64,000 bases of DNA from an uncultured Lachnospiraceae bacterium (GTDB lineage Bacteria > Bacillota > Clostridia > Lachnospirales > Lachnospiraceae), in the NCBI GenBank assembly GCA_902779575.1, contig CACZBW010000013.1, forward strand, positions 41,649 through 105,648. The letters run 5' to 3'. Position 1 is the first letter of the stretch. Each line of letters starts with the position of its first letter. Under the pieces are notes generated by a model, which worked only from the letters and a program-made list of their open reading frames with translations, was not told the origin of the DNA and did not search any database. Made by a program: the position numbers and the translations under genes. Below are positions 23,815 to 38,025 of the stretch, piece after piece.

Positions 23815-26357
23815 TGCTTAAAAACCGGAATAAAGTCAGTGCAGCGGATCGTATTGCCTCCATGTCCCTCAGCCGCCTTTTCGCGGCCGCAGCAGCTGTG
23901 ATGCTGATTATGACAGGGGTTCTGTCGCTTTCATTTTCCACTGTCTGGGCAAAAGGAACAGATACGAACTACACGCAGATCAATAATACCGTGGCGAAAG
24001 GCGCGCGGGCCAAGTATACGAAACTGAAAGGCAAGGGCAGGGACACTGTCACGCTGATGATCTATATGATCGGAACGGACCTGGAGAGCCAGAACGGCAT
24101 GGCGACCTCCGACCTCAACGAAATGCTTTACTCGGAGATCGATAACAGCAGGGTCAATATCCTGATCGAGACAGGCGGCTGCAGAAGATGGAGAAACAGC
24201 GTTATCTCCGCGGGCAAGCTGCAGCGCTGGAAGCTGACGGGCAGGGGTCTTCAGCTGGACGATACCATGAAGTCCCAGGCGATGACCAATGAAGCTGCCC
24301 TGGCCGACTTTATCCAGTACGCGAAGAAGACGGCTCCCGCAGACCGCTACATGCTGATCTTCTGGGATCACGGCGGCGGATCGGTCAGCGGATACGGATA
24401 CGATGAGGTATATCCGAACGATTCCATGGATGTGGGCGAGATTGCCTCCGCACTGAAGAAGGGCGGACTGAAGTTTGATTTTATCGGCTTCGACGCCTGC
24501 CTGATGGCGACTCTGGAGACCGCGGTCGCCGTGGAACCCTATGCGGATTACATGATCGCCAGCGAGGAAGCCGAGCCGGGCACCGGCTGGTACTATACCA
24601 ACTGGCTGAAGCTTCTGGACAACAACTCTTCTACCAATACCCTGGAACTTGGCAGGCAGATCCTTGACGATTTCACCATGGCTTCGGCCCGCTCGAATTC
24701 CAGGTCGCAGACCACCCTTTCCCTGATTGACCTGTCCGAGCTGGACAACAGCGTGCTCAGGAGCCTGACAAGCTTTGGAAAAGGGCTGACGAAACAGCTT
24801 AAGAGCAAGGATTTCCAGTCCGTGGCGACAGCAAGGAACGGAAGCCGTGAATTTGCCCGCAGCAATCACCTGGACCAGATCGACCTTGTGGATTTCTGCA
24901 ACCGTCTCGGAACGGACGAAGGCGCGGCGCTGGCTAAGGCGATCCGCTCCGCTGTGAAATATAACCGCGTCAACAATATGACCGACGCCTACGGGCTGAG
25001 CATCTATTTCCCGAATTCCAGCCTGAAGTCCATGAATTCCATGATTCAGATCTATGAGAATATCGGCATGGACGACGAATGGTCGGAGAGTATCCGGACC
25101 TATGCGACGCTGGAATCTTCCGGACAGATCGCGGCGTCTTCGGGCGCTGCTTACGGCAGCGGTTCCGGCAGCCTGCTCGATATCCTGCTGGGCCTGTCGG
25201 GCGGCTCCTATGATTCCGGTTACGGTTCAGGGAACAGCGCGGGATCCGGACAGAGCTTCGGTTCCTCCACCGGTTCCGGCTATGATCCCTACGGCGGCTA
25301 TTCCAATGTGTACGGATCTAGCTATGATTCCTACGGGTCCATGACCATGGAGGACATGCTCAATCTCCTGACCGGATCTTCTTACGGATCCTCCTATGGT
25401 TCTTCCTACGGTTCCCAGGGCGGCTATGGAAACGGAAATACTTCTTCCTGGGGCGGCTATGGGAACGGCGGGAATACGTCCTCCTGGGGCGGCTATGGAA
25501 ACGGCAATACATCCTCCTGGGGCGGCGGCAGCTCCTCCTCTTCCGGCGGACTGACGGACAGCCTGCTCTCCCTGCTTCTCGGCGGTTATACCTCCACGGA
25601 CGGCATGAACTACGGCGGAACGAATTATTCTTCCATCCTGGGCGGCTCGAGCGATTATGTCTCCACGGACCTGCTCAGCCTGGCCGCGCAGCTGCTCTGC
25701 GGCAGGGCCATGGTCGGATCCGAGACCCTGGCGCTTACCGATAAGGACGGCGTGCAGGTTCTGCAGATGGACGAAGACCGCTGGGACCAGGTAGTTTCCG
25801 CGGAACTGGAAGTTTTCATTGACGACGGAAACGGCTATCTGGATCTGGGCCTTGACAATGTGTTCGAATTCGACGATGACGGCGACATGATCGTCGACTG
25901 GGACGGCACCTGGCTGACGCTTGAGGGACAGCCTGTCGCGGTCTATCCGATCAGCGACGAGGATGCTGACGAAGACGGGCTGTGGATCACAAGGAAGTAC
26001 ATCCCGGCGCTGCTGGAAGGCGAGCGCGTGAACCTCATCGTGGAGTTCAATGAGGAGACAGGGGAAGATAAGGTCCTCGGTGCACAGAGCATCCTGGATA
26101 CGGGCGTGGTAGGAAAAGGCTACATCGAGATGGAAGCGGGAGACGAGATCAAGCTTCTCTGCGACTATTTCACATACGACGGCAATTTTGAGTCCCAGTA
26201 TGTCCTTGGAAAACCGGTTACAGTGCCGGAGGACGGCGTCCTTACCATCGGCAATATGGAACTTACGGCGTCTTCCGACTACCAGATGCTTTACACAGGA
26301 CGTCTGACCGACATTTACCAGGCGCATTACTGGCTGCCGGTGACGAAGGTGTCCTGA
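23814..26357 (+). CDS. Secreted clostripain-family (C11) cysteine peptidase
   Basis: 847-aa exported peptidase. A signal/anchor segment lies at about residues 21-46. The C11 domain (about 78-430) has the catalytic dyad His186 in WDHGGGSVSGYGYDE and Cys229 in FIGFDACLMATLETA, plus TLMIYMIGTDLE and the SEEAEPGTGW motif; family members cut after Arg or Lys. A low-complexity insert rich in Gly, Ser, Tyr and Asn (about 450-590, repeated YGSSYGSS and SSWGGYGNG) separates it from a C-terminal beta-rich region with acidic DDGNGYLDLG and DEDADEDGLW stretches that may bind calcium. It is coupled to the small gene upstream. Confidence 0.9.
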   Translation: MLKNRNKVSAADRIASMSLSRLFAAAAAVMLIMTGVLSLSFSTVWAKGTDTNYTQINNTVAKGARAKYTKLKGKGRDTVTLMIYMIGTDLESQNGMATSDLNEMLYSEIDNSRVNILIETGGCRRWRNSVISAGKLQRWKLTGRGLQLDDTMKSQAMTNEAALADFIQYAKKTAPADRYMLIFWDHGGGSVSGYGYDEVYPNDSMDVGEIASALKKGGLKFDFIGFDACLMATLETAVAVEPYADYMIASEEAEPGTGWYYTNWLKLLDNNSSTNTLELGRQILDDFTMASARSNSRSQTTLSLIDLSELDNSVLRSLTSFGKGLTKQLKSKDFQSVATARNGSREFARSNHLDQIDLVDFCNRLGTDEGAALAKAIRSAVKYNRVNNMTDAYGLSIYFPNSSLKSMNSMIQIYENIGMDDEWSESIRTYATLESSGQIAASSGAAYGSGSGSLLDILLGLSGGSYDSGYGSGNSAGSGQSFGSSTGSGYDPYGGYSNVYGSSYDSYGSMTMEDMLNLLTGSSYGSSYGSSYGSQGGYGNGNTSSWGGYGNGGNTSSWGGYGNGNTSSWGGGSSSSSGGLTDSLLSLLLGGYTSTDGMNYGGTNYSSILGGSSDYVSTDLLSLAAQLLCGRAMVGSETLALTDKDGVQVLQMDEDRWDQVVSAELEVFIDDGNGYLDLGLDNVFEFDDDGDMIVDWDGTWLTLEGQPVAVYPISDEDADEDGLWITRKYIPALLEGERVNLIVEFNEETGEDKVLGAQSILDTGVVGKGYIEMEAGDEIKLLCDYFTYDGNFESQYVLGKPVTVPEDGVLTIGNMELTASSDYQMLYTGRLTDIYQAHYWLPVTKVS

Positions 26358-27587: not shown

Positions 27588-29121
27588 ATGCCGTGCACAA
27601 CGATTCTGGTAGGAAAACTGGCAAGTTACGACGGGTCGACGATCATCGCGCGCAATGACGACGCGGGCGCGGATCATCTTATGCCGAAAAAGTGTTCCGT
27701 GATCCATCCGCAGGAGCAGCCGCGTGTATACCGCTCCGTCCTTTCCCATGTCGAGATCCCTCTGCCGGAGAATCCGATGCGCTATACCTGCGTACCGAAC
27801 GCGCTGACCGGGCAGGGCGTCTGGGCGGCGTCCGGCGTAAATGAGGCAAATGTTGCGATGACCGCAACCGAGACCATCACCTCGAACGCGCGGGTGCTGG
27901 GAGCGGACCCGCTGGTGACTTATGTTCCGGCTGAAAAAAAGCGCCTTGTCTCCGACCGGACGGGGGATATCGACCGTTCGGACGCCTCATTTCAAGAAGA
28001 TTCCTGCGCCGCGTCCGGGGCAGAAATCCCGGGCGGGATCGGGGAGGAAGATATCGTAGTCCTTGTCCTTCCCTATATCCGTTCCGCCAGAGAGGGCGTG
28101 CTCCGGCTCGGACAGCTCCTTGCGCAGTACGGGACCTATGAGATGAACGGAATCGCTTTCCAGGATTCGGACGAGATCTGGTGGCTGGAAACAATCGGCG
28201 GCCATCACTGGATCGCGAAAAGGGTTCCGGACGATCAGTATGTTGTGATTGCCCAATCAGCAGGGAATCGACGAATTCGACCTGGAGGACGCTTTCGGCG
28301 CGCAGAAGGAGCATCTCTGCTCGCCGGATCTCAGGGAATTTATTAAGGATAATTATCTGGACCTGTCGCTGGACGGGACTTTTCGCGCGCGCTATGCCTT
28401 CGGCAGCCATGATGATTCGGACCATACCTATAACACCTGCCGCGCGTGGGCGATCGAGCGCTGGCTGAACCCGCGCTCCTTCTGCTGGGACGGCCCGGAC
28501 GCGGACTACAGGCCGGATGACGATGATATTCCGTGGAGCATGCGGCCGGAACGGAAAATGACGGTTGAGGATGTGAAATATGTGCTTTCCGGCCATTACC
28601 AGGGGACGGAATATGACCCCTACGGCAAATCCGGCAAAGGAGGACTCTATCGTCCGGTCGGCGTAAACCGTACGGATTTTCTGTCCATTATCCAGATCAG
28701 GCCTTATCTGCCTGAGGCGGTCAGGGCGCTGCAGTGGATTGCATTTGCCTCCAACGTCTTTAACGCGATCGCCCCGTTCTATACGAATGTGGAGGAGCTG
28801 CCGGACTATCTGACCTTCACGGAGGATACCGTGTCCACAGACAGCTTCTACTGGAGCAGCAGGCTGATCGGGGCGCTGGCCGACGCGCATTTCGCGAAGA
28901 ACGCCATCCATATCGAGCGCTATCAGAACCTGGTGTTCAGAAGAAGCCATGAACTGGTCGCGAAGATGGACCGCGCTTATCTGCAGGAAGGGCATTCCCT
29001 GGAGGAAGCGAATCTTGAGATCGCGGATATGCTGAAAGAAGAAACTGTCAGGGCCCTGGGGAATGTACTCTTCGAATCCACCAAAGCCATGACCAACGCC
29101 TTCTCCCGCGCGGACGCGTAA
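27588..29121 (+). pseudogene. pepD: C69-family dipeptidase, split by a frameshift
   Basis: Peptidase U34/C69 (PepD, dipeptidase A) in two overlapping frames: 27588-28346 and 28249-29121. Cys3 in [10 protein letters not shown] is the family's N-terminal nucleophile, followed by [10 protein letters not shown]. Near 28247-28250 the frame shifts: the first frame ends its homology at DDQYVV and the family motif [15 protein letters not shown] resumes in the +1-shifted frame, as expected if one extra T had been inserted in GTGATTGCCC. Both halves are otherwise well conserved, so the event is recent or a sequence error. It ends 19 bp before the next gene, at the head of the unusual operon. Confidence 0.88.
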
Positions 29122-29140
29122 ATATAAAGGAATCATTTCA

Positions 29141-30004
29141 ATGACTACAGAGAAAACCAACCCGAGCCTCTCCGCTTTTCTTGAGGAGGACAGGGAACAT
29201 ATCCTGTCAGAACTGAAAGCGGATCCGTCAGAGACCCATGCAAAAGAGGTTCTGTCCAGGGAGCTGGAACGGCTCATGTACCGCGCGGCGGAAGCGGATA
29301 TGGGCGAGTCTGCCCAGAATATGCTGATCACTGTGCGCAATACCCTGCCCATCGTGGAATCTGTTTCCGATGTGGAAGAGTGGAGAAGGATTGAATCCGG
29401 AAAGCAGAAACGCAGCTTCCCGGTATTTCCCATCGTGCTTCTGGCGGCAGGCGTCGCCTTTATCCTTCTCGGAAGAGGAACCGCTCTGTCCAGCATTCTT
29501 CTTACGGCGGGCGGATGCATCGAGCTTGGAACGGGAGCTTACCTTTTCGGGAAGAGCGGCAGGAAAGAAGTTTCCGGCCGGGATAACCGTATTTCCGCGG
29601 AAGTCGAGAGGAAGTTTCTGGTGGATCCGGAAGACGCCTATCATGTGCTTGCCGCGGTAACCCTCGCGGCGGACCACAGCCTTGAGCTGGAGCGGGACCG
29701 GATGCTGCTGGAAGATTCCGCCGCAGGGACTTCAAAGACAGCGCAGCGGACGGAGATTGAGTTTTATTCAGAGCTTCTGGAATATGTCTACAGGCAGCTG
29801 AGATCTGAAAAAGACGCTGACGACGCCTGGGAACAGATCGATTATATTCGATATTATCTGCACACGACAGGGATTGACGTAACCGACTACAGTCCGGAAC
29901 ACGCGGGCTGGTTTGAACTCCTGCCGGGCGGGCAGACGCTCACGATCCGGCCGGCCCTGATCATGGACGGGACCGTGCTGAGAAAAGGAATTGCTTCCGT
30001 ATAA
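29141..30004 (+). CDS. Two-helix membrane protein of the TerB/Hsp70-like operon
   Basis: 287-aa protein I do not recognise. A cytosolic helical N-terminus (1-92) is followed by two hydrophobic helices (about 94-111 and 115-133), then a C-terminal domain of about 150 residues that contains VERKFLVDPEDAYHVLAAV, a Tyr-rich helix and a beta-like end (GGQTLTIRPALIMDG). The topology suggests both ends face the cytosol. AAAGGA precedes the ATG. It is spaced 38 bp from the Hsp70-like gene, so it is probably a dedicated membrane partner of that ATPase (inference). Confidence 0.7.
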   Translation: MTTEKTNPSLSAFLEEDREHILSELKADPSETHAKEVLSRELERLMYRAAEADMGESAQNMLITVRNTLPIVESVSDVEEWRRIESGKQKRSFPVFPIVLLAAGVAFILLGRGTALSSILLTAGGCIELGTGAYLFGKSGRKEVSGRDNRISAEVERKFLVDPEDAYHVLAAVTLAADHSLELERDRMLLEDSAAGTSKTAQRTEIEFYSELLEYVYRQLRSEKDADDAWEQIDYIRYYLHTTGIDVTDYSPEHAGWFELLPGGQTLTIRPALIMDGTVLRKGIASV

Positions 30005-30042
30005 GCGGCCGCTGTCCTGCATTTCTCTAAAAGGAAGAAAAG

Positions 30043-31956
30043 ATGGAACGTTTTTTTGGATTTGATCTGGGTGACGCGGAGAGCGCGGTGGCCAGACTTG
30101 CCAGGGAAGAAAAAGGCGAGCCGGCCATTGTGCCGGTGTGCGACGCGCCCAGTTTTATCACAGCTTATGCCAGAGCGGCGGGAGGCGGTCTTCTGATCGG
30201 GGAGAGCGCCTGCTACAGCGCGGACACGACTGTGCGGCGAATCCGTTTCAAGAGCAGGTTCCTCAGCGATCCGGACACGGAGAAGGATATACAGACCTTT
30301 GCCGCCGGAGTCCTGGGAGAACTGTATCAGTCCGGAAATCTGGTTCAGAATGAGGACTGCTGCTTTTATATCGGCTGCCCGGCAGGCTGGAACGCCGTCC
30401 AGAGGGAGCGCTACCGCGAGATTTTTGAGCGGATCGGCTATCCGCCGGTCAGGATTGTCTCGGAATCCCGTGCAGCCCTGATCTCGGCCTGCCAGTCCAG
30501 GCACCTACAGGTCGGCTATGATATCATGACCAGGCCGGTCCTTGTGGTGGACGTGGGGTCCTCCACAACCGATTTTGCCTACATCGAGGGCGGCCACGAG
30601 GTGGAACTGAAGACCGCGGGGGAGGTTGTGCTCGGCGGAGGGCTCATGGATGAGCTTCTGCTGGACTGTGCAGTCGCGGCAAGCCCGCGGGCGGATGAGA
30701 TCCGGGAGATTTTCTCTAAGAGCGAAGCCTGGAGAAATTACTGTGAATTTGCCGCAAGAAGGCTGAAAGAGAAATATTTTGCGGACGAGGCATACTGGGA
30801 GAACCAGCTCTGCAGAAAGAGCGTGGAGATTCTGTTTGACGGAAAACAGATCCGGCTGCCGATCGAAATAAACAGGGAAATCGCGGACCGCCTCCTGAAC
30901 GGACCGGTACCCGGTCTCAAAGGCGCTTCCTTCCACGATGTATTCTGCGGCAGTCTTAACCAGATCCGGGAGAAGATCGACGGGAAGATGCCGGAACTGC
31001 TTTTCCTGACAGGCGGCGTGTCAAATCTTCCGGCGATCCGTACCTGGTGCCAGGAAGCCTATCCGGATTCGGTGGTGGTGACAGGTCCGCATCCGGAATT
31101 TTCAGTCGCCAAAGGCCTTGCCTACAGCGGCCGGATTGATGAAGACATGAGGGCCTTCCGCAGGGAAGTGAGCAATCTGATTGACTCCGCCGTGGTGGAG
31201 CAGCTGGTTGAAGAACATCTGGACGAGCTCTATGACGCCGTGGTGGATGCACTGGTTGAGCCGCTCATGGAAAATGCGGTCATCAATATTTTTGACCGGT
31301 GGCGGAGCGGAGAGATCGAGCGCCTGTCGGAAATCGATGAGAAGCTGAAGGAAGAGATTGAGGATTACCTGAGAGGGCCGGAAGCCCAGAAACTGCTTGT
31401 GGGCGTAATTTCAGGCTGGCTTAAACCTGTCGCCTACGCACTGGAAGAGTATACGATGCCCATCTGCGTGAGCCATGGGATTCCCTATAAGGCTTTGAAC
31501 CTGACGACATATCTGTCCGTCTCCGATCTGGAAATCCAGATTGACGCGAGGGATATCTTCGCGGTAGATCAGTTCACCTGGATGATCAATGCGATCCTGT
31601 CCGTTATCGTGGGCCTGATCTGCGGCGGAAACGGGATTGCCCTGATTACGGGCGGCCTGAAAGGAATCCTGGCGGGAACGATCGTCTCCCTGTTTGTTCT
31701 CCTGATCGGGCAGGAGCATATCGAGGCGAAAATGATGGACATCAATCTGCCGAAGACGCTGCGGAAGCTGATTCCGAGAGGGCAGTTTGCTTCGAGAATG
31801 AAGAAGATGGCGCCGGAGGTAAAGGCCAGTTTTCATAAGAATCTGGAAAATGAAAAGACGGAGGAGATCTCCTCCCGCCTTGTCAGCGAAATCTCCGGCC
31901 AGATCGAGCAGTGCCTGACCCGGATGGCAGAGGTTGTGGAGATTCCGCTGGGGTAA
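30043..31956 (+). CDS. Hsp70/actin-fold ATPase with C-terminal membrane segment
   Basis: 637-aa protein. The N-terminal 370 residues have an Hsp70-type nucleotide-binding fold: phosphate-1 loop FFGFDLGDAES (4-14), phosphate-2 loop VVDVGSSTTDFAYIEGG with Asp170, and adenosine motif LTGGVSNLPAIR (about 322-333). There is no DnaK substrate domain. Instead the C-terminal part is a long acidic helical region (about 375-500), a hydrophobic stretch (about 510-556) able to span the membrane twice, and a basic tail. It is therefore not a general chaperone. Position between a two-helix membrane protein and a TerB-domain protein suggests a membrane-linked regulator or scaffold of this system. Confidence 0.8.
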   Translation: MERFFGFDLGDAESAVARLAREEKGEPAIVPVCDAPSFITAYARAAGGGLLIGESACYSADTTVRRIRFKSRFLSDPDTEKDIQTFAAGVLGELYQSGNLVQNEDCCFYIGCPAGWNAVQRERYREIFERIGYPPVRIVSESRAALISACQSRHLQVGYDIMTRPVLVVDVGSSTTDFAYIEGGHEVELKTAGEVVLGGGLMDELLLDCAVAASPRADEIREIFSKSEAWRNYCEFAARRLKEKYFADEAYWENQLCRKSVEILFDGKQIRLPIEINREIADRLLNGPVPGLKGASFHDVFCGSLNQIREKIDGKMPELLFLTGGVSNLPAIRTWCQEAYPDSVVVTGPHPEFSVAKGLAYSGRIDEDMRAFRREVSNLIDSAVVEQLVEEHLDELYDAVVDALVEPLMENAVINIFDRWRSGEIERLSEIDEKLKEEIEDYLRGPEAQKLLVGVISGWLKPVAYALEEYTMPICVSHGIPYKALNLTTYLSVSDLEIQIDARDIFAVDQFTWMINAILSVIVGLICGGNGIALITGGLKGILAGTIVSLFVLLIGQEHIEAKMMDINLPKTLRKLIPRGQFASRMKKMAPEVKASFHKNLENEKTEEISSRLVSEISGQIEQCLTRMAEVVEIPLG

Positions 31957-31986
31957 GAAAGCGGTGAGTGAGGAAGGAGAAGGCAG

Positions 31987-34158
31987 ATGTCAGAGGGCAA
32001 GATCTATAAAGACCAGCCGATTCCGCCGCGGCCTTCCTCATCCGGAGCCGGCCGGCAGAGTCCGGCCGGCGGGAAGCCCGGGGAGAATTCCCGGCAGGAG
32101 TCCGGGCAGGAGCGAGGAGCTTACCGGAGGCAGGGGAGAATTCTGAACAGCAGGCGCCGTACGGATCAGACCGGCGCGCCTACAAGACAGCTGGGCCGCT
32201 CTCCGTGGAATTTTATAACGGAAGAGGAACTCTTTTCCGGCTTCCGCCCCGCGGAACCCCGTACACAGTACGGCGCCGGGCGGCCGGGAAAATCTGCGCA
32301 GCAGGCCGGAAGAGGGATGCCTGTAGCGGAAAAGATCCGGAAGCTGAACAGCATGCTTTCTCCTTACCAGTACAGCTTTGAAAAAAAGAGCAGGGCTTTC
32401 CTTGAACAGGCCAGGTTTATGGCGGATTATGAGGAGGAAGTCTCCGGGCCGGGAGTGCCGGATCCCTGCTGGCCCGTGCAGCGTCATAATCTCCCGGCTT
32501 ACCAGGAGCTGAACATCTATGAGCTCAGCTCTTATTTTCGCTGGAGAACACAGATCCGGCAGCTGCTCAGAGACGGCGTGGAAGAGAAAAAGGACTGGCC
32601 GGCGGTCTGTTCCGATTTTGCCTATATCCTGCTGTTTGAGCTGATTAACAGGATCGGACCCGGCAGCCCGGAAGAAGGCCTGAAGCAGATCATAGCGCTC
32701 AACCGGATCTATGCCGGGTCGGTATCCTGGCCCTCCTCCCATGTGCACTGGTGGATTCAGGATTATATCCTCTGTTATGAAATGAGCCAGGACTACGCCG
32801 CGGAATATTTTCGGGATACGATTTATTCTTCCCGGACAGTGAATGCGCTGGCGGATCCTTTCGCCGCGACGGACAAGGAGATCCTTGCGGCTGTCGACAT
32901 GTATTCCGCCTATCATCTGAACCGCTCCGGCTTAAGAGAGCAGTTTCCCGCGGAGACGGAAGAAGCGACCGCAGCGGTGGTCAGAGCCCTGGCGGATTAT
33001 TATACAGAGAAGATGCAGGGCAGCTCGAAAGAAAGCGCACGAAGCCCCAGCAGCATGGAGACAGATCCGGCAGCCGGCATAAACAGGACCCAGAGGACCG
33101 CGTCGGATCTGTCAGTCAGCGACTGTGACAACAGAGAGGCTGCAGCAGACCTGTCAGAAGGCGCCCGCGGCACGGGAGAGGCTGCGGCAGATCCGCCGCA
33201 AAGGCATGACGGACTGGCTGTGAAAATCTTCGGGCAGAGGAGCGAATGGCCGCGCCAGATTTTCCGCGGAGCCCTCTTTGATCCTTCTCGGATTGACGAT
33301 CACCGATATGTACTGTCTCCTTCCAGGCAGTTCCGTTTTCTGAAGGGGAAATGTTATTACGACTCCTTTCCGTCAGATGTCCCTTCGGAAGGGAAACACT
33401 TTTTTGGCAGCCTGATCCGGGAAACCGACCGCAGGCTGCGTATTGCCCTGGCTTTCGGCCGCCCGCTCAAGGAGGCGCAGCTGGACCCCGGGACAGCCCC
33501 GGTGATTCAGCAGCAGATTGATCTTTTCCTCGCGAGAAAAAATGAACGGGAGAAACCGGTTCTTCAGGTTGATTTCAGCCGGCTTTCCGGAATCCGTGCG
33601 GATTCGGATTACACGGCCGGACAGCTGCTTCGCGGGATCGGAGACAATGGGGAAGAGCCTGAACAGCAGGGGGAATTGTCTCCTTCAGAGCCTGTGGATG
33701 AAAATGCCCTGCGGCCTGATTTTTCGGATGAAAGATTTTCCGGCGCAGCTGCTCCACAGACTGAGTTCGCAGAAGAAAGGCCGGCAGATCCGGTTATTCA
33801 GCGGCCTGTGATCTCAGGTTCGATGCCGGTGAAACCGGACCTGTCGCAGGATGCGTCCGCATCTGCAGCTGTTCCCCGTCCTCAGTCAGCGGACGCGAGC
33901 TTCCGGCAGGATTTTCCGATGGGAATGACAGAGGAAGAGTACAGGCTGCTGACAATGATCCTGGCCGGGGAAAATCCGGAGGAATATCTGCGGAGCAGGA
34001 GACTGCTGCAGTCTGTGCTTGTCGATTCCATTAATGAGAAATTTTACGATGAGATCGGTGACTCCGTTCTGGAAGAAGGGGACAGCGGTCCTGAGATAAT
34101 CCCGGATTACCGGGAAGAGCTGGAAGAAATAATCAATTCCTCATTGGCGGAATTCTGA
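31987..34158 (+). CDS. TerB-N/TerB-C domain protein
   Basis: 723-aa cytosolic protein. A disordered basic N-terminus (1-115) is followed by the TerB-N domain (about 120-335): the core RAFLEQARFMADYEEE, YQELNIYELSSYFRWRTQIR and FAYILLFELINRIG match the family. A low-complexity linker (about 340-400) leads to a middle region (about 405-520) and a second linker. The TerB-C end (about 640-723) has SVLVDSINEKFYDEIGDSVLEE, then GPEIIPDYREELEEI. Such proteins occur next to P-loop ATPases and superfamily-II helicases in Ter-type stress/DNA-processing modules, exactly as here. The ATG is set by AAGGAGAAGGCAG. It is probably a structural hub of the complex. Confidence 0.85.
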   Translation: MSEGKIYKDQPIPPRPSSSGAGRQSPAGGKPGENSRQESGQERGAYRRQGRILNSRRRTDQTGAPTRQLGRSPWNFITEEELFSGFRPAEPRTQYGAGRPGKSAQQAGRGMPVAEKIRKLNSMLSPYQYSFEKKSRAFLEQARFMADYEEEVSGPGVPDPCWPVQRHNLPAYQELNIYELSSYFRWRTQIRQLLRDGVEEKKDWPAVCSDFAYILLFELINRIGPGSPEEGLKQIIALNRIYAGSVSWPSSHVHWWIQDYILCYEMSQDYAAEYFRDTIYSSRTVNALADPFAATDKEILAAVDMYSAYHLNRSGLREQFPAETEEATAAVVRALADYYTEKMQGSSKESARSPSSMETDPAAGINRTQRTASDLSVSDCDNREAAADLSEGARGTGEAAADPPQRHDGLAVKIFGQRSEWPRQIFRGALFDPSRIDDHRYVLSPSRQFRFLKGKCYYDSFPSDVPSEGKHFFGSLIRETDRRLRIALAFGRPLKEAQLDPGTAPVIQQQIDLFLARKNEREKPVLQVDFSRLSGIRADSDYTAGQLLRGIGDNGEEPEQQGELSPSEPVDENALRPDFSDERFSGAAAPQTEFAEERPADPVIQRPVISGSMPVKPDLSQDASASAAVPRPQSADASFRQDFPMGMTEEEYRLLTMILAGENPEEYLRSRRLLQSVLVDSINEKFYDEIGDSVLEEGDSGPEIIPDYREELEEIINSSLAEF

Positions 34159-34162
34159 AGTC

Positions 34163-34285
34163 ACGGAAATAAAACAGCCGCTTTGCGGAGCGGATTGTTA
34201 CGGAGATAAACAGCCGCTTTGCGGAGCGGATTGTTGCGGAGATCAAACAGCCGCTTTCGGAGCGGTCTGTTTTCGGAGAGCAAAA
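34163..34285 (+). repeat. Three-copy 36-37-bp tandem repeat ahead of the ATPase gene
   Basis: Units begin with CGGAGAT-like sequence at about 34163, 34200 and 34236 and end in a fourth partial CGGAGAG at 34274. Each contains AACAGCCGCTTTGCGGAGCGG, forming a small CCGCT/AGCGG hairpin. The final partial copy serves as the ribosome-binding site of the ATPase gene, and each unit carries a similar Shine-Dalgarno-like CGGAGA element. Confidence 0.9.
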
Positions 34286-35638
34286 ATGGCAGATTATACA
34301 GATCACGATGCAGCCGCGCGCAGAAAGGTACCGCGCCGGATTGCGCAGACCGTCCTGAATTCCCTGAAGGGCGGCGTCGTGCCGAGAACGGGGCTTCCCT
34401 ATGTGACGGTCGGCAGGAAGCATGAGATTGACGCACTGCTCCATGATGTGGATATCATCGCCGAAGGAGGCGCGTCTTTCCGTTTTATCGTCGGGCGCTA
34501 CGGGAGCGGAAAAAGTTTTCTCCTCCAGACGATACGGAATTATGTGATGGAGCGGGATTTCGTCGTAGCGGACGCCGATCTTTCGCCGGAGCGCAGGCTT
34601 CAGGGAACAAGGGGTCAGGGACTTGCGACTTACCGGGAACTGATCCGGAACCTTTCTACAAAGACCCGGCCCGAGGGCGGAGCGCTCACACTGGTTCTGG
34701 ACCGATGGATTTCCTCCGTACAGGCGCAGACAGCGTCGGAGACCGGACTGGACGTACAGGAGGCTTCCTTTGCCGCTGAGGTCGACCGGAAAATTTTTGC
34801 GGTGATTCATTCTCTCAGCGAACTGGTGCACGGCTTTGATTTCGCCCGTCTCCTATCCCTCTACTATCGTTCATATCTGCACGGGGATGATGAGACCAAG
34901 GCGAAGGTGGTGAAATGGTTCCGCGGGGAATATTCCACCAAAACGGAAGCCCGGCAGGACCTGGGGGTGACAGTGATCATCACGGACGACGACTGGTATG
35001 AATACCTGAAGCTTTTTGCCAGCTTTTTCCGCCAGGCGGGTTACCGGGGCTTCATGATCTTTATCGATGAGCTTGTGAACATTTACAAGATCCCGAACAG
35101 CATCACCCGGCAGTATAATTATGAAAAAATCCTGACCATGTACAATGATACGCTTCAGGGAAAGGCGCAGTATCTGGGAATCCTGATGAGCGGGACGCCG
35201 CAGAGCGTGGAGGATACGCGCCGCGGCATTTACAGCTACGAAGCGCTCCGTTCCCGGCTGACGGAAGGCCGCTTTTCCAGAGAAGGCGCCAGAGATATGC
35301 TGGCGCCGGTCATCCGCCTGGATCCGCTTTCCCCTGAGGAAATGCTGGTCCTCACGGAAAAACTTGCGGATATGCACGCCGGCCTTTACGGTTATGAGCG
35401 GAGCATGACGCAGGAGGACCTGGCTCTGTTTCTCAGAATTGAGTACGGGAGAATCGGGGCGGATACCAATATTACGCCCAGAGAGGTAATCCGGGATTTC
35501 ATCGAGCTTCTGGACATTCTGTACCAGCATCCCGGCATCTCGGTAAACGAGCTGATGGAATCAGATGCGTTCAGCTACGCGAAATCGGATGCGGTGAGCG
35601 ATGAAGCGCTGGAAGAATTCGCGGAATTTACCTTGTGA
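34286..35638 (+). CDS. P-loop ATPase of the BrxC/BrxD (DUF2791) type
   Basis: 450-aa ATP-binding protein. Walker A is VGRYGSGKSFLLQT with Lys76; Walker B is FMIFIDELVNIY with Asp261-Glu262; sensor-like LGILMSGTPQSVEDTRRGIYSYEALRSRL (within 305-335) follows. The profile matches the BREX-type ATP-binding protein family, also found in Ter-linked DNA-processing operons. The N-terminus ARRKVPRRIAQTVLNSLKGGVVP is typical. It is probably the motor or regulator that acts with the TerB-domain protein and the helicase downstream. There is no PglZ, BrxL or methyltransferase in the window, so this is not a complete BREX locus. GGAGAG, from the last tandem repeat, precedes the ATG. Confidence 0.88.
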   Translation: MADYTDHDAAARRKVPRRIAQTVLNSLKGGVVPRTGLPYVTVGRKHEIDALLHDVDIIAEGGASFRFIVGRYGSGKSFLLQTIRNYVMERDFVVADADLSPERRLQGTRGQGLATYRELIRNLSTKTRPEGGALTLVLDRWISSVQAQTASETGLDVQEASFAAEVDRKIFAVIHSLSELVHGFDFARLLSLYYRSYLHGDDETKAKVVKWFRGEYSTKTEARQDLGVTVIITDDDWYEYLKLFASFFRQAGYRGFMIFIDELVNIYKIPNSITRQYNYEKILTMYNDTLQGKAQYLGILMSGTPQSVEDTRRGIYSYEALRSRLTEGRFSREGARDMLAPVIRLDPLSPEEMLVLTEKLADMHAGLYGYERSMTQEDLALFLRIEYGRIGADTNITPREVIRDFIELLDILYQHPGISVNELMESDAFSYAKSDAVSDEALEEFAEFTL

Positions 35639-35667
35639 AAATCATATAAAACGCTGAGGACTTGGAG

Positions 35668-38025
35668 ATGGATGTTTTCGGCCGTTATGCGCCATTTATT
35701 CAGGATTTCATATACCGCAGCAACTGGCAGAACCTTCGGGCGATCCAGGCGGCGGCGGGCGAAGCGATCTTTGAATCGGATGAAAATGTACTGCTGGCGG
35801 CTTCCACGGCTTCCGGCAAGACGGAAGCCGCCTTTTTTCCGATCCTGACTCTGTTTGATGAGGATCCCCCTGCTTCTGTCGGCTGTATCTATATCGCGCC
35901 GCTGAAGGCGCTGATCAACGACCAGTTCGGACGTCTGAATGATCTGTGTGAGGAGGCCGGCATTCCCGTCTGGCACTGGCACGGCGACGTGTCGGCGTCC
36001 CATAAAAAGAAGCTTCTGAAACATCCTTCCGGCATTCTGCAGATTACGCCGGAATCCCTGGAAGCTCTGCTTCTGAGAAAACATGGGGAGATTCCGAATC
36101 TTTTCGGAGACCTCAGGTTTGTCGTGATCGACGAGATCCATTCCCTGCTGAGGGGAGACCGGGGCGGCCAGACCCTGTGCCTGATCGAGCGCCTGAGCAG
36201 GATGGCGGAGGTAATGCCCCGCAGGATCGGTCTCTCGGCAACCATCGGAGATCCGGAAGCGGCCGGCCGTTTTCTCTCAAGCGGAACGGGGCGGGGCTGC
36301 GTGATCCCGCGGATTGAGGCAAAAGGACTGCGCTGGCGTCTCTCCATGGAGCATTTTTTCCTGACTCCGCCTCAGGCAGCGGATGAAGCAGCCGCACCCG
36401 GGAAGGATTTTCAGGCAGCGGAAGAAACCGCTGCGCCTGGGAGAGATTTCCGGATGCCGGATGCGTCAGCCCCGCCAGGAAAAAGCCCTCAGGAATCGGA
36501 TTTTCCGGACGGCCAGGAAAGTCTGATCTCCGGCGACAGCACTGTGAGCGCGCCTTCGGACAGAGCGCCTTACGGCGCGGATCCGGGGATGGCCTATATC
36601 TTTGAACATACAAAAGGCAGAAAATGCCTGGTATTCAGCAATTCCAGGGAGGAGTGCGAGGCTGTCACCTCCACGCTCCGCCAGTACTGCGAAGCCGCGC
36701 ACGAGCCGGACCGCTTCATGATTCATCACGGCAATCTGTCCGTTTCCTTCCGCGAGACCGCGGAGGAGGCGATGAAACAGGAGGACGCCGCCGTCACAAC
36801 CTGTACGACCGCGACGCTGGAGCTTGGAATTGACATCGGAAAGCTGGAACGGGCTTTCCAGATCGACGCGCCGTTTACCGTTTCCTCCTTCCTTCAGAGG
36901 ATGGGCCGGACCGGCAGGCGGGGCGAGCCCCAGGAAATGTGGTTTGTCATGCGGGAGGAGCACGCCGAGGCGAGGGATCTGCTCCCGGAGACCATCCCCT
37001 GGAAACTGATTCAGGGAATCGCCCTGATCCAGCTGTACCTTGAGGAGCACTGGGTGGAGCCGCCCCGGGAGGACAGGCTTCCTTACAGCCTGCTCTATCA
37101 CCAGACCATGAGCACGCTGGCCTCAGGCGGAGAGATGACGCCGGCGGAGCTGGCCTCCAGGGTATTGAGCCTGGCATATTTCAGAGGAATCTCAAAAGAG
37201 GATTACCGGATTCTACTGAATCATCTGGTCGCCATCGACCATATCCAGCTGACCGAGAACCGGGGCCTGATCGTCGGACTCAGCGGGGAACGGATTACCA
37301 GCTCCTTCAAGTTTTACGCGGTTTTCCAGGAAAATGAAGAGTACCGGGTCCGCTGTGAATCCCAGGAGATCGGGACGATAGTCAAACCGCCGCCGGTCGG
37401 GGACAAGATTGCGATTGCCGGCCATATCTGGGTAGTGGAAGAAGTGGACAGGACCCATCATCAGGTTTACTGCCATATGGTGAAAGGCAAAGTGCCTGCC
37501 TATTTCGGCCAGGAACCGGGAGATATCCACACAAAGATTCTGGAGCGGATGCGGCGGGTGCTGAGTGAGCAGAAAAGCTACCCATACCTGCTGAAAAATG
37601 CTTCCGCGAGACTTGCGACAGCACGGCAGGCCGCGATTCTGGCCCATCTTGACCGGAAACCGCTCGTCTGTCTGGGAGGTAATATGTACTGTCTCCTCCC
37701 ATGGCTGGGAAGTTATGCCTTTCTGGCCCTGGAGCGTTTTCTGCGTCTGAAATGTGCCGGAGCGCTCGGCCTGAAGGGCTTCAATTCCGCGCGGCCTTAT
37801 TTTATGCAGTTTACAATGAGCGCGTCGGAGAGTGAATTTGTCCGGATTCTGAAGGCGGAAGCGCTCAGGGACCTTGATCCGATGGAGCTGCTTTATCCCG
37901 GAGAGGTTCCCCTCTTTGACAAGTACGACGATATTCTGCCGGAGGAACTGGTCCGGAAAGGATTTGCGTACGGGGTGCTGGATACAGAAGGCATGAAAAA
38001 GCGGATTCTGGAGTGGGAAGGATAA
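35668..38025 (+). CDS. Lhr-like DEAD/DEAH-box helicase (DEIH box)
   Basis: 785-aa superfamily-II helicase. Motif I is ASTASGKTEAAFF with Lys51; motif II is DEIH (Asp155-His158); motif III is SAT; motif VI is QRMGRTGRRG (about residue 410). A non-conserved insert (about 230-300) between the two RecA domains is Ala/Pro/Asp-rich with repeated APGKDF/APGRDF segments. The C-terminal half resembles Lhr-type winged-helix regions. The start is the ATG at 35668 (GAGGACTTGGAG upstream) rather than an in-frame TTG two codons before. It is the last gene of the probable operon, 29 bp after the ATPase gene; Lhr-type enzymes unwind 3'-tailed nucleic acids. Confidence 0.88.
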   Translation: MDVFGRYAPFIQDFIYRSNWQNLRAIQAAAGEAIFESDENVLLAASTASGKTEAAFFPILTLFDEDPPASVGCIYIAPLKALINDQFGRLNDLCEEAGIPVWHWHGDVSASHKKKLLKHPSGILQITPESLEALLLRKHGEIPNLFGDLRFVVIDEIHSLLRGDRGGQTLCLIERLSRMAEVMPRRIGLSATIGDPEAAGRFLSSGTGRGCVIPRIEAKGLRWRLSMEHFFLTPPQAADEAAAPGKDFQAAEETAAPGRDFRMPDASAPPGKSPQESDFPDGQESLISGDSTVSAPSDRAPYGADPGMAYIFEHTKGRKCLVFSNSREECEAVTSTLRQYCEAAHEPDRFMIHHGNLSVSFRETAEEAMKQEDAAVTTCTTATLELGIDIGKLERAFQIDAPFTVSSFLQRMGRTGRRGEPQEMWFVMREEHAEARDLLPETIPWKLIQGIALIQLYLEEHWVEPPREDRLPYSLLYHQTMSTLASGGEMTPAELASRVLSLAYFRGISKEDYRILLNHLVAIDHIQLTENRGLIVGLSGERITSSFKFYAVFQENEEYRVRCESQEIGTIVKPPPVGDKIAIAGHIWVVEEVDRTHHQVYCHMVKGKVPAYFGQEPGDIHTKILERMRRVLSEQKSYPYLLKNASARLATARQAAILAHLDRKPLVCLGGNMYCLLPWLGSYAFLALERFLRLKCAGALGLKGFNSARPYFMQFTMSASESEFVRILKAEALRDLDPMELLYPGEVPLFDKYDDILPEELVRKGFAYGVLDTEGMKKRILEWEG

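Follow-up and report, generated by a model that had tools for sequence, protein, structure and literature searches.

A conserved gene pair for a two-helix membrane protein and an Hsp70-like ATPase lies next to, and is probably independent of, a predicted Shango locus in an uncultured Lachnospiraceae bacterium

The anti-phage system Shango, known from published work, consists of three genes, for a TerB protein, an ATPase and a helicase, and protection against phage has been demonstrated for the Shango of Pseudomonas aeruginosa PA14 (PMC10250203). The helicase SngC has been grouped with BrxHI, DruE and DpdJ, in what may be a separate clade of helicases (PMC12278908), a role as loader, together with the helicase, has been proposed for BrxD in the BrxD-BrxHI dyad (PMC12839542), and Shango is named among the defence systems of the rumen (PMC13356809). 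Here we describe a stretch of 64,000 nucleotides from an uncultured Lachnospiraceae bacterium (assembly GCA_902779575.1, contig CACZBW010000013.1, positions 41,649 to 105,648 of the forward strand; hereafter the window), in which three genes that we assign to Shango (SngA-SngB-SngC, 31987–38025) directly follow a pair of genes (29141–31956) for a two-helix membrane protein and a membrane-anchored Hsp70-type ATPase. A preliminary description had combined these five genes with an upstream dipeptidase into one system of six reading frames. We propose, with a probability of about 0.87, that two independent modules stand side by side and are neighbours in one lineage, because they are linked in only one of 80 pair loci and in none of 35 other Shango loci, and because a genome of the same genus has SngB-SngC without the pair. 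This keeps the record of a known defence system free of an extension that does not hold, and it leaves in the window a conserved pair, shown by gene linkage, for which we found no description.

The first gene of the pair (29141–30004, + strand) encodes the two-helix membrane protein and the second (30043–31956, + strand) the Hsp70-type ATPase, which matches PF00012 (E value 1.9e-6). Relatives of the ATPase were collected by scanning one genome per species, and the counts refer to the best 80 of 313 stretches. In 79 of these 80 loci the next gene upstream is a homologue of the two-helix gene, with gaps of -4 to 279 bp, and the remaining locus starts 68 bp from a contig end. The tight linkage of the two genes is thus strongly supported. 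Any third neighbour family accompanies the pair in at most 17 of the 80 loci, and the neighbourhoods are many and different. The partner is also upstream in all five further genomes of the order with an Hsp70-like protein of at least 55% identity, in the fifth (G074) as read from locus L143. The distribution of the Hsp70-like gene is patchy, with 9 of 299 family genomes (E value 1e-60) and 6 of 146 order genomes (at least 55% identity), while six more order genomes have weak matches only; of 398 genomes sampled across the phylum, only that of the window has the pair. In our reading, the two genes are an autonomous pair, conserved as a unit and found mostly in Clostridia of the rumen and gut. 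Neither protein has a PADLOC match at an E value of 0.01. In the open-licence literature, judged by titles, we found no bacterial membrane-anchored Hsp70/DnaK family of this kind, and, judged by titles and the beginnings of abstracts, no paper that ties Shango to Hsp70; a membrane-bound DnaK is mentioned in a cyanobacterial paper on Vipp1.

Shango was present in the fetched flank of one of the 80 Hsp70-like loci; the flanks add up to about 1,165 kb. This locus (L065) comes from a sister species within the Lachnospiraceae, the Hsp70-like protein of which is 94% identical to that of the window, and it also keeps the entire stretch from the clostripain gene through CDD. The low ratios of nonsynonymous to synonymous substitution (dN/dS) between the window and L065 (two-helix protein, 0.16; Hsp70-like, 0.05; SngB, 0.035; SngC, 0.08) indicate that these four genes are real coding sequences under purifying selection. 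For the reciprocal count, SngB matches, the window's own included, were found in 30 of 146 order genomes at an E value of 1e-20 (24 at 1e-60) and in 31 of 299 family genomes at 1e-60; Shango stretches were read from 15 of the 29 other order genomes and 20 of the 30 other family genomes. None of these 35 loci contains the pair, either by homologue search or with profiles of both pair proteins. Besides the window's genome, G074, G196, G396 and G433 hold both the pair and Shango, always on different contigs. In G211, a genome of the same genus, SngB-SngC precede the PNP and CDD genes that also follow them in the window, and the genes upstream are different ones. The Hsp70-like query found no pair in that genome at an E value of 1e-60, and the 19.5 kb around its SngA, located by a TerB_C search, contain no SngB, SngC or pair. 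The simplest reading is that Shango has its place at the nucleoside genes in this genus and that the pair was either gained upstream of it in one branch or lost from G211. The preliminary description had staked its single system on the co-occurrence of the Hsp70-like and two-helix genes with the other three, and the check, once run, went against it: with one linked locus among 80 for the pair, none among 35 for Shango, and the arrangement in G211, a six-gene system is rejected on linkage.

The assignment of the three downstream genes to Shango is based on profile matches. The product of the first (31987–34158, + strand) contains TerB_N and TerB_C (PF13208 and PF15615) and matches the PADLOC model of SngA (E value 1.3e-47) over residues 115–716. 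The second (34286–35638, + strand) encodes a BrxD-like AAA+ ATPase with a BrxC_BrxD domain (PF10923, E value 2.4e-171; PADLOC SngB, 4.2e-195), and the third (35662–38025, + strand) a BrxHI/Lhr-like superfamily 2 (SF2) helicase with DEAD and Helicase_C domains (PF00270 and PF00271; PADLOC SngC, 2.9e-274) and a weak match to WH_Lhr (0.017). The PADLOC models of SngB and SngC outscore those of BrxD and BrxHI/BrxHII by far, and the two genes are adjacent on the same strand, 23 bp apart, as expected of Shango. In the translations of SngB and SngC, what we take to be the P-loop, the DEIH box and helicase motif VI are visible. Sequence searches with SngA and SngB returned no solved structure, and among the 10 neighbouring proteins of the window (16411 to 42707) PADLOC matched no other defence model. 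The suggestion of an anti-phage function accordingly stands, as a prediction, for the TerB, ATPase and helicase trio, which PADLOC identifies as Shango, and a single system that takes in the Hsp70-like ATPase and its two-helix partner is not supported. Among the 35 other SngB loci, 31 match all three Shango genes, L182 included, in which SngC is cut by the edge and about 8 kb away; L063 and L191 have no SngC in the stretch, and L174 and L186 no SngA. By comparison with published relatives, SngB would load or activate the SngC helicase on invading or damaged DNA, and SngA may act as a sensor or couple the action of SngB-SngC to a response.

As a separate observation, SngA is apparently the least stable part of Shango. 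In G211 it is encoded at L244 (contig C22, 8800–10467), off the contig that carries SngB-SngC (L174, contig C23, 4964–8890), and in the sister species its matches are spread over three frames (L065, 11869–14136) while the pair is intact, although an assembly error is possible.

The Hsp70-like proteins were aligned (n = 61: the window's, 58 of the 80, and two from order genomes), and PF00012 is matched by all 61 at an E value of up to 0.1. Residues D8, K70, E141, D170 and T175 are invariant in 61 of 61 and are presumably the Hsp70 catalytic residues. The profile matches of the window's protein are all weak and concern HSP70, MreB and chaperone families. The AlphaFold model (predicted local distance difference test, pLDDT, 82) contains an Hsp70 nucleotide-binding domain that Foldseek aligns with bovine Hsp70 (E value 3.8e-15). 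From residue 351 on the model is helical with no beta sandwich, so that the protein, as modelled, would have neither the substrate-binding beta domain nor its lid; this agrees with the Hsp70 fold without substrate domain that had been read from the sequence earlier. Hydrophobic segments lie at about residues 505–560, where the model is of low confidence. In one relative (G196, contig C20, 2870–4655), the protein occupies two adjacent frames (residues 1–368 and 408–637), the break falling close to where the ATPase domain ends.

The two-helix protein has no Pfam domain at an E value of 0.1 and no PADLOC or NCBIfam match. In its AlphaFold model (pLDDT 86), the N-terminal part is helical, two hydrophobic helices follow, and the C-terminal part is made up of three helices and short strands. 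In an alignment of 62 members (the window's, 59 of the 79 found, and two from order genomes), all eight invariant residues are in the C-terminal end, from E214 to G283. A Pfam scan of these 62 at E values of up to 1 matched 92 families; the best 25, among which GrpE is not found, are mostly membrane families matched in few members, the best being a holin family (E value 1.1e-4). The matches of the two-helix profile to solved structures, of which a designed channel is the best (E value 0.0027), look like chance matches of membrane helices and were set aside.

Several observations weigh against the independence of the pair and Shango. Flank of at least 5 kb on both sides was available in only 43 of the 80 pair loci. 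Within the family, the two occur together in 4 genomes where 0.9 would be expected of 299 (Fisher p 0.008), or in 3 against 0.8 of 298 with the window's genome left out (p 0.037), the genomes being related, so that these p values are not strict; in the order the count is 1 against 0.8 of 145 (p 0.58). In addition, their adjacency is common to the window's species and L065 despite synonymous divergence (dS) of 0.38–0.66 in six genes, but so is everything else from the clostripain gene to CDD. Shared ancestry and habitat could be the source of the excess in the family, and in none of the other genomes are the two linked. A rival view is that all five genes form one system, an extended Shango specific to this lineage, with SngABC brought to the membrane by the Hsp70-type ATPase and its partner. 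Such a system would fit the common strand, the 30-bp gap, in which no terminator-like site was seen by a consensus scan that was noisy (20 sites where 10.7 were expected), the same arrangement in the sister species, and purifying selection on the pair, SngB and SngC. However, the short gap suggests shared transcription of pair and Shango here rather than shared function, linkage elsewhere is confined to the single locus already mentioned, the pair is mostly found without Shango, SngB-SngC and SngA of the same genus both lack it, and the sister species keeps it intact with SngA in three frames; we consider a five-gene system very improbable. The pair might also be a module for defence or stress in its own right, which came to lie with Shango at a site common to both. 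Its many different neighbourhoods and patchy distribution are in keeping with this, and certain defence systems (CoCoNuTs; PMC11090510) are known to contain Hsp70 domains, but neither pair protein matches PADLOC and nor do the 10 neighbouring proteins, and we regard this origin as unlikely.

With respect to function, we tentatively propose, at somewhat less than even odds, that the pair is a new membrane-bound Hsp70 machine of rumen and gut Clostridia, in which a helical, membrane-inserted end has taken the place of the substrate domain. It would be driven by an exchange factor of its own, GrpE-like and anchored in the membrane, and would work at the membrane's inner face. Such a pair would work as a membrane-bound ATP switch, in which the GrpE-like end of the two-helix protein exchanges nucleotide on the Hsp70-type ATPase, and it would act on proteins at the inner face. 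If this is true, Hsp70 energy is used at the membrane without the usual substrate-binding domain and with a matching membrane exchange factor. A relation to GrpE was suspected from the last residues of the two-helix protein prior to the fold search, in which the soluble C-terminal part (about 155–287) matched GrpE of the GrpE-DnaK complex (PDB: 1dkg_A) at rank 2 with a probability of 0.92. The other 49 of the best 50 among 107 matches have probabilities of 0.30 or less, so that the DnaK-bound GrpE stands out among the matches listed. Alternatively, the two-helix protein is not GrpE-like at all, the fold match is due to chance, and the protein serves the ATPase as a scaffold or receptor in the membrane. 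A number of results favour this second explanation over an exchange factor: the fold match is weak (E value 0.25; root-mean-square deviation 17.3; TM-score 0.26 for the query and 0.43 for the target) and ranks behind an unrelated helical structure; our own GrpE profiles, run with filters off against the 62 members, reached a best E value of 0.025; and hhalign probabilities against GrpE proteins (26 ordinary, 16 accessory) were 0.1–0.4, or 2.9 with query and template swapped, near the 0.0–1.2 of controls (reversed columns and other parts of the same proteins) that were run unswapped only. In the window's genome, PF01025 at an E value of 0.001 matches nothing but the ordinary grpE, on contig C17. 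An identification as GrpE by sequence was accordingly rejected, as the profile-profile comparison did not clearly beat its controls and our own profiles gave no member a better E value than the one stated. The prominence of the DnaK-bound GrpE in the fold search and the restriction of all eight invariant residues to the C-terminal end speak against a scaffold or receptor, which we see as a real possibility that stays short of being probable.

Upstream of the pair, a C69 dipeptidase is encoded in two overlapping frames, 27588–28346 (+ strand; PF03577, E value 1.2e-86, profile positions 2–187) and 28249–29121 (+ strand, other frame; 1e-69, profile positions 184–400), while in the sister species it is one intact frame of 510 amino acids (L065, 7526–9058). 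The dipeptidase accompanies 3 of the 80 Hsp70-like loci, one of which is that of the sister species, and, with the second piece as query, none of the 35 other Shango loci; it therefore belongs to neither module, in disagreement with its earlier inclusion as a system member. The six frames themselves were found where the preliminary description had placed them, in the same order and on the + strand, and its domains were recovered by Pfam except for the two-helix protein. From the dipeptidase to SngC the intergenic gaps are 19, 38, 30, 127 and 23 bp, which agrees with the spacing given as mostly 19–38 bp. The 127-bp gap between SngA and SngB is occupied by a 36-bp tandem repeat of 3.3 copies with a G+C-rich hairpin (34163–34284, no strand assigned); in the sister species this gap holds another, longer repeat. 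A further repeat, of 33 bp in 3.2 copies, lies at 25418–25526 within the clostripain-family gene and encodes a stretch rich in Gly, Ser, Asn, Tyr, Trp and Thr.

Shango has been described in Pseudomonas aeruginosa and E. coli, and the window shares with it all three families and the order TerB, ATPase, helicase. In contrast to the described loci, the trio of the window adjoins a membrane Hsp70-like pair and nucleoside-salvage genes. The BrxD-BrxHI dyad of type 2 BREX belongs to the same ATPase and helicase families (SngB against BrxD, E value 7e-48; SngC against the BrxHI/BrxHII model, 6e-119), to which the window adds SngA. Type 2 BREX itself was rejected as an identity of the locus: a genome-wide search aimed at PglZ (PF08665) alone among the core genes gave no match in the window's genome, which is 95.3% complete, and no BREX model matched the 10 neighbouring proteins (16411–42707).

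For the pair, the closest described system is DnaK-GrpE. The two have in common the nucleotide-binding domain of Hsp70, its motif residues being conserved, and the end of the partner is possibly GrpE-like, whereas in the pair the substrate-binding beta sandwich is missing from the model and both proteins carry hydrophobic segments. The window's genome keeps an ordinary grpE and dnaK, the latter named from its sequence, side by side on another contig. Within the same order, second, divergent GrpE matches occur on proteins of about 170–650 amino acids, all 19 of them over the PF01025 cut-off, and 16 of the 19 stretches (L224–L242) also hold an Hsp70-like frame. The pair can be likened to this recurring arrangement of an accessory Hsp70 with a GrpE-tailed partner. 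The 16 accessory partners recovered are without a strong membrane helix, their highest 19-residue hydropathy being 0.68–1.60, in contrast to the two-helix protein, and by analogy the pair might plausibly be a membrane version of the accessory Hsp70-GrpE arrangement.

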